Shown here: positions 7,967 to 9,569 of the stretch, piece after piece | Layout: every line of letters starts with the position of its first letter | How positions within the stretch are numbered: position 1 is the stretch's first letter | Position numbers and translations under genes: made by a program | Assembly: GCA_002686955.1 (NCBI GenBank) | Contig: NYZA01000214.1 | Coordinates: 1 to 21,621, forward strand | From: Gemmatimonadota bacterium | Lineage (GTDB): Bacteria; GCA-2686955 | Direction of reading: 5' to 3' | DNA: 21,621 bases | Notes under the pieces: generated by a model | Told to the model about the DNA's origin: nothing | Seen by the model: only the letters and a program-made list of their open reading frames with translations | Databases searched by the model: none

Positions 7967-9157
7967 ATGATTCGACGCAACTTGGCCGTCGTGCTGAGAG
8001 AGTCGGCTTCTTACTATCCGGTGGTCACGCTGACCGGCCCGAGGCAGTCCGGCAAGACCACCCTGTGCAAGGCCGTTTTTCCCGACTTTCACTATGTCTC
8101 GCTGGAGGACATCGGGGCGCGTGGCTACGCCGAGGATGATCCTCGCGGTTTCCTAAGAGAACACTCCGCGGGTGTGGTCATCGATGAAGTGCAACGCGTG
8201 CCCGAGCTGCTCTCCGCGTTGCAGGTCGAGGTCGATGCCAAGCCAGATCCTCCCGGACGTTTCATCCTGACGGGCTCCCAGCACTTCGGCGTCTCCGCCG
8301 CCGTCGCCCAGTCTCTCGCCGGTCGCACCGCGGTCCTGACACTGCTCCCACCCAGCCTCGACGAGCTCAAGCGCTTCGCGAGCCCCTCCAACGACGATCT
8401 GATCGAGATGCTCTGGACGGGAGCCTATCCACGCATCCACGACCGGAGGATTCCGGCGGGTCGATGGCTCCGAGACTACATCGGCACCTATGTGCAGCGG
8501 GATGTGCGAGAGGTGCTCAATGTTGGCGATCTGACGGCCTTCACCACCTTCACGAAGCTCTGCGCCGGGCGCACCGGCAGCGAGCTCAACCTGAGCAATT
8601 TGGCTGGGGACGCAGGCATCACCCGCAACACCGCCAAGGCGTGGCTCTCCGTCCTCGAAACGAGCTATTTGTGCACCTTGATCCCAGCGTGGCACGCCAA
8701 CCTCCGCAAGCAGCTGGTGAAGCGGCCCAAGCTTCATTTCTACGACACAGGCTTGGTCTGTGCCTTGCTCGGGATCTCCAGCTCCGACCAACTGAGGCAC
8801 CATCCGCTGCGCGGCCCGATTTTCGAGAGCTGGGTGATCGCCGAGATCACCAAGGCGCGATTGCACGCGGGAAGGGCTCCTGGAGCTCACCATTTCCGAG
8901 AGTCTCGCGGCCTGGAAGTGGACGGCGTGATAGACGAGGGGAGCGCTCTGGTCTTGGTGGAGGCCAAATCGGGGGCGACCCTCAGGTCGGAACACTTTCG
9001 GCCGCTGGCGAGACTTTCCGAGCTTCTGCGCCAGCGTGACGATAGTCGCGGGATTCAAGCCGTCCTGGTTCACGGAGGAGATGAGAGACAACGACGCTCC
9101 GCCGGTTTGGCGCTGCCCTGGAGCGGGATCGAGCACGGGCCGTGGGTTGAAGGATAG
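7967..9157 (+). CDS. AAA family ATPase with C-terminal DUF4143 domain
   Basis: A 396-residue protein of the AAA_14/DUF4143 family. Walker A is GPRQSGKTT (residues 24-32), Walker B is VVIDEVQ (70-76), and LTGSQHF supplies the sensor-1-like motif. The DUF4143 part includes IFESWVIAEITK, then LEVDGVID and LVLVEAKSG, an arrangement recalling the D...E-x-K core of PD-(D/E)XK folds. Length is normal for the family. These ATPases are frequent and poorly understood accessory genes; cellular role unknown. The ATG at 7967 has no Shine-Dalgarno sequence, and the best promoter puts the transcript start almost on it, so a leaderless mRNA is possible. It stands alone between the broken TPR gene and a palindromic element. 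Confidence 0.85.
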   Translation: MIRRNLAVVLRESASYYPVVTLTGPRQSGKTTLCKAVFPDFHYVSLEDIGARGYAEDDPRGFLREHSAGVVIDEVQRVPELLSALQVEVDAKPDPPGRFILTGSQHFGVSAAVAQSLAGRTAVLTLLPPSLDELKRFASPSNDDLIEMLWTGAYPRIHDRRIPAGRWLRDYIGTYVQRDVREVLNVGDLTAFTTFTKLCAGRTGSELNLSNLAGDAGITRNTAKAWLSVLETSYLCTLIPAWHANLRKQLVKRPKLHFYDTGLVCALLGISSSDQLRHHPLRGPIFESWVIAEITKARLHAGRAPGAHHFRESRGLEVDGVIDEGSALVLVEAKSGATLRSEHFRPLARLSELLRQRDDSRGIQAVLVHGGDERQRRSAGLALPWSGIEHGPWVEG

Positions 9158-9569
9158 CGGTTCACCGGAAACGGCGGCGGAGCTCCCGCATGAAGAACGG
9201 GATCGGGCGGCCGAGTTCCTCCGCGACTGTCGCCCGTCACGCCATTTCGCCTCGCCTTTCCTGATTGGGGGCCCGGAAAGAAATAGACGTGCCACCTCGC
9301 ATCCCATCTTCGGGCCATCTTCGGCCGACGCCTCAATCGTGCAATCCTCGACGTAGGCTGCGACTACGCCTCCGGTTGCACTCAATCGGATCGGCCGAAG
9401 CTGACCCAAATCTGGGCGCGATCCGACACGTCTATTTCTTTCCGGGCCCTACGAAGATCCCCGGGAGGACCGAGCACTGGCCGGCGAGCCGCCGCCATTC
9501 GTCGCCAGGCCCGCCCCGCGGCTCCGCTTCGCCGAACGCGACGCCCTTTTTGCCCCCGGCGATGGATGT
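9158..9569. other. Non-coding region after the ATPase gene
   Basis: About 410 bp with no credible gene. Open frames on both strands are Arg/Pro/Ser-rich and cross the palindromic element at 9269-9449. Apart from that element I see no terminator with a U-tract after the ATPase stop and no other recognised feature. Confidence 0.6.
9269..9449. mobile_element. MITE-like 181-bp long imperfect palindrome with 23-bp perfect terminal inverted repeats
   Basis: Positions 9269-9291 and 9427-9449 are exact reverse complements (23/23; ends GGGCCCGGAAAG and CTTTCCGGGCCC). The interior is also symmetrical about 9359: the arms share CTTCGGCCGA, then GTGCAA/TTGCAC and CGTAG/CTACG towards the centre, with mismatches and small gaps between. 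The whole unit could fold into one long hairpin. No transposase is encoded, and I see no clear target-site duplication. This shape is typical of non-autonomous MITEs or hairpin-type intergenic repeats. There is no second copy in the window. Confidence 0.65.

Follow-up and report, generated by a model that had tools for sequence, protein, structure and literature searches.

The window analysed here, a stretch of 21,621 nucleotides, contains a 181-bp palindromic element at positions 9269–9449. It starts 111 bp after the stop codon of a gene for a DUF4143/AAA_14 ATPase (7967–9157) and is followed by a run of housekeeping genes comprising prs, ribosomal protein L25, H+-pyrophosphatase and ribosomal protein S6, the probable start of prs (ribose-phosphate pyrophosphokinase) lying about 370 bp downstream of the palindrome. 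These neighbours are as described in the first-pass annotation, which placed the element between an accessory ATPase and a core operon. The open reading frames crossing 9269–9449 are only mechanical, overlapping ones, and the element has no transposase gene; in this G+C-rich genome such frames overlap too heavily for gene-context statistics. The contig with the prs locus in the one same-family genome begins 340 bp upstream of that gene and does not reach the position of the palindrome.

The left terminal inverted repeat, GGGCCCGGAAAGAAATAGACGTG (9269–9291, plus strand), is the exact reverse complement of the right one (9427–9449, minus strand) at 23 of 23 positions, and the repeat search extended the terminal arms to 32 nt at 88%. 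The same search gave a second arm pair, 9303–9328 (plus strand) and 9391–9416 (minus strand), which are 81% complementary and in which CTTCGGCCGA (9319–9328) is matched by TCGGCCGAAG (9391–9400). The hairpin tip (9339–9381) is formed in the RNA fold by the stem GTGCAATC/GGTTGCAC and an inner stem CGTAG/CTACG (9352–9356 with 9364–9368), and GTGCAA (9339–9344) is complementary to TTGCAC (9376–9381). The palindrome with perfect 23-bp ends and an interior partly self-complementary to the centre, as first described, is thus present with all the pairs then named. By our own estimate an exact 23-bp inverted repeat within 200 bp is expected about 1e-7 times in 21.6 kb, and the repeat is not due to chance. 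Folding of the RNA, suggested by the first-pass annotation, gave one long hairpin for 9255–9465 with −103.7 kcal/mol, compared with −68.1 ± 4.3 kcal/mol for shuffled sequences (z = −8.2, none of 200 shuffles being as good). The Rfam search of the element gave no family match at the gathering score, and two sub-threshold microRNA matches (E values of 4e-4 and 5e-3), far below the family cut-offs, were rejected as hairpin artefacts.

The genome of the window, represented by an assembly of 270 contigs with 84.5% completeness, holds further full copies of the element at C16:5736–5916 (92% identity) and C14:2576–2756 (91%). The segment C58:2174–2263 is a half copy of the same subfamily (93%); close to the hairpin tip unrelated sequence takes over, the outcome expected of a deletion that began at a hairpin. 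The subfamily is small, its end GGGYCCGGAAAGAAA, to which both terminal repeats of the window element belong, having 8 matches in the genome and none in the control. The same genome contains many relatives about 70% identical to the window element, with the 17-mer GGGTYCGCGCAAGAATA as their ends; the full-length relatives number 27 and measure 177–180 bp. This 17-mer was found at 165 places with at most two mismatches (1 for the backwards control) and at 202 places with at most three (control 15). In a further set of 97 genomes, which took in the single relative from the same family, it did not rise above background, and the copies seem to be confined to one genome. Pairing of inward-facing ends in the fetched stretches gave 43 elements, in classes of 177–180, 151, 98, 86–90 and 40 bp. 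Adding four by hand, namely one at C56 and the window element with its two 181-bp sister copies, brings the total to 47 paired copies, which span 40–181 bp and contain no transposase gene. A search of the rest of the genome, as the first-pass annotation had proposed, thus places copies at tens of unrelated sites.

At C17:57829–57849 and at C244:22417–22421 a pair of MITE ends adjoin back to back with one 3-bp site in common, and one end of each pair is solitary, no partner having been found nearby. At least 12 contigs end inside a MITE copy (for example C18, C65, C81, C131, C150, C156 and C195, and further C228, C251, C45, C96, C158 and C260). The MITE probably breaks the assembly, and a gene-bearing driver element may have been lost with these contig ends.

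The flanks of the paired copies bear on how the family has spread. An identical 3-bp direct repeat is found at 22 of the 47 paired copies, compared with a mean of 8.1 and a maximum of 18 in 5000 shuffles, and there is no excess of identical repeats of 1, 2, 4 or 5 bp. The repeats are mostly TAA or TTA, with CAA, TCA, TGA, AAA and ATA pairs also present, and the preferred insertion site reads approximately C-TWA-G. The window copy itself is flanked by TGG and TAC, with no identical 3-bp repeat or clean duplication, and its two sister copies also have no exact 3-bp repeat. The flanking duplications anticipated in the first-pass annotation are therefore a property of the family that this copy and its sisters do not show, and it is from the family that we infer that the window copy has moved. 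The initial suggestion of a non-autonomous transposable element or an intergenic hairpin family is supported by the copies at unrelated sites and the 3-bp repeats.

We consider it likely that the palindrome is a MITE, a transposable element without genes that relies on an ISAzo13-type DDE transposase (PF07592) encoded elsewhere. The enzyme would recognise and move it by its two ends, and insertion would duplicate 3 bp, usually TAA or TTA. This reading is supported by the ends of ISAzo13 loci in other genomes. The end GGGTCCGCGCAGAAATAACTTCACATTCTTGC of locus L218 matches the MITE end at 27 of 32 positions, the end of L217 (GGGCTCACGCAAAAATAACTTGTCA...) at 25 of 32 and that of L216 at 23 of 32, in each case at the terminus of the insertion sequence, while the 17 PF21804 loci used as control reached at most 22 of 32. 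For more distant ISAzo13 loci, carried by plasmids of Streptomyces and Rhizobium, the match to the MITE end was no better than that of shuffled ends. L217 is flanked by CTA/CTA, and ISAzo13 loci of Nostoc, Skermanella and Streptomyces by TTA/TTA, which agrees with the 3-bp duplications reported for ISAzo13 (PMC10045372).

An ISAzo13 transposase is the most likely mover on these comparisons, although the assembly contains no intact gene of this type. Its sole ISAzo13 trace is a decayed 138-aa fragment with a stop at C200:3186–3596, without MITE-like ends. This suggests that the driver was either lost or not assembled, and at 84.5% completeness an intact element may be missing from the assembly rather than absent from the genome. 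The driver would be expected to consist of an ISAzo13 gene between inverted GGGTYCGCGCAAGAATAACTTG ends, with TWA flanks. A scan of viral contigs with an ISAzo13 protein gave no relative, the phylum-level search around genome G149 covered three genomes, and a search of the open-access literature for ISAzo13 MITEs found no paper. The divergent window subfamily, the end of which is further from the ISAzo13 ends than the GGGTYCGCGCAAGAATA-type ends are, has presumably been moved by the same type of transposase.

The family is also characterised by the behaviour of its hairpin. When 30 full copies are brought into one orientation, 93.6% of the consensus pair cells form. Changes on both sides are seen in 33 of 57 pairs, compared with at most 10 when the pairing is slid by 1–3 columns; these counts are inflated by the relatedness of the copies, and the alignment used for them is also the one that yielded the structure. 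Arm-to-arm conversion, without selection, could also be a source of the covariation. Most copies in either subfamily have four ATCT words, at positions 36/37, 47/48, 128–130 and 139–141, each arm holding two of them at a spacing of 11 bp. In the window element the inner left arm (9303–9328) has both of its words (element offsets 37 and 48), and the inner right arm (9391–9416) retains the one at offset 141, while that at offset 130 is changed.

The ATCT words also predict most of the short forms. Deletion from the first to the third word, or from the second to the fourth, removes 92 bp (179 to 87), and deletion from the second to the third removes 81 bp (179 to 98); the predicted 87 and 98 bp correspond to short classes that were observed, and these have their junctions at ATCT. 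The 86–90-bp and 98-bp forms appear to have arisen when the hairpin top was lost between directly repeated ATCT words, probably through slippage across the hairpin during replication. The short forms show at least three different junction sequences, which suggests that such deletions probably occurred several times. The rule does not simply extend to the forms of 151 and 40 bp or to the copy of 90 bp at C108:66219.

The arms change together while the four ATCT words, spaced in each arm by about one turn of the helix, remain constant, which raises the question of whether the whole-length hairpin is itself selected, with the transposase or a host protein recognising a folded (cruciform or single-strand) form and not the ends alone. 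We regard such selection as rather unlikely. Of still lower probability, in our judgement, is that the copies form a REP/ERIC-like family of intergenic palindromes, kept for a host function such as transcript stability, termination or nucleoid binding and spread by duplication and not by an ISAzo13-type transposase. The covarying arms (33 of 57 pairs, at most 10 when slid), the conserved ATCT words and the strong fold would be in agreement with a host function, but the covariation can also come from copy relatedness or arm-to-arm conversion, the family seems restricted to a single genome, and exact 3-bp direct repeats together with insertion-sequence-like ends are what transposition leaves behind.

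A different mover was considered: the same genome has a Transposase_29 (PF21804) insertion sequence, of which the MITEs would then be internal-deletion derivatives. A PF21804 element or its end directly follows a MITE end at C99, C102, C108 and C131 (partial at C131), and two of the four copies carry long open transposase frames. However, PF21804 elements of many phyla have an inverted repeat of their own, CAGACCTCCTGATCTC, with unrelated flanks, and this repeat is absent from the MITEs. Moreover, the copy in C108 (L117 of genome G000, approximately 63505–65946) has AACTT as a direct repeat on both flanks, and on its far side the interior of the MITE continues (CTTGTCATTTGGCATCCCATCTGC), which marks an insertion into a MITE. 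The C108 flank and the element's own ends in relatives therefore indicate that Transposase_29 elements inserted into the MITEs and did not drive them; we rejected this driver and hold the derivation to be very improbable. All four copies lie at the same place inside a MITE, just after ...AATRACTT, so either MITEs are the target of the PF21804 element or the two moved as a composite. The copy L117 has two ORFs in different frames (L117:304–2593, minus strand), encoding a 182-aa helix-turn-helix protein and a 572-aa transposase, near an A-rich stretch, an arrangement that may reflect programmed frameshifting. Finally, a single local structure, for instance a terminator or attenuator of the downstream housekeeping genes, would suit a strongly folding element between two same-strand genes, but no T-run follows the hairpin, and the two copies of 91–92% identity and the many relatives at other loci, found in place of the one copy conserved at one site that the first-pass annotation associated with a local structure, refute it.

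The ISAzo13-driven MITE remains our preferred reading, and what we describe is apparently a MITE family linked to ISAzo13 and present in many copies in a single uncultured lineage. The assembly seems to break at its copies, and another insertion sequence seems to land in them. With its covarying arms and fixed size classes the family is clearly suited to the study of how foldback elements keep and lose their hairpins.

That the element is of a known kind, a MITE family with an unusually complete palindrome, is well supported. The MITEs resemble the ISAzo13 family insertion sequences (PF07592, DDE_Tnp_ISAZ013) in their ends, GGG...CGCAARAATAACTT, with up to 27 of 32 positions matching, and in their 3-bp TWA repeats, but they have no transposase gene, measure 40–181 bp against about 1.3–2 kb for the ISAzo13 loci, and are palindromic over nearly their whole length. 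The bacterial MITEs known as Correia elements, Nezha and Chunjie are likewise short and gene-less, with terminal inverted repeats, target duplication and many copies; the present family differs from them in sequence and probable driver, in a palindrome that reaches nearly to the centre and in short forms with junctions at ATCT. The ERIC/IRU and REP repeats are also palindromes of intergenic regions with a long hairpin fold, and the family described here is set apart from these by its insertion-sequence-like end and its 3-bp direct repeat.
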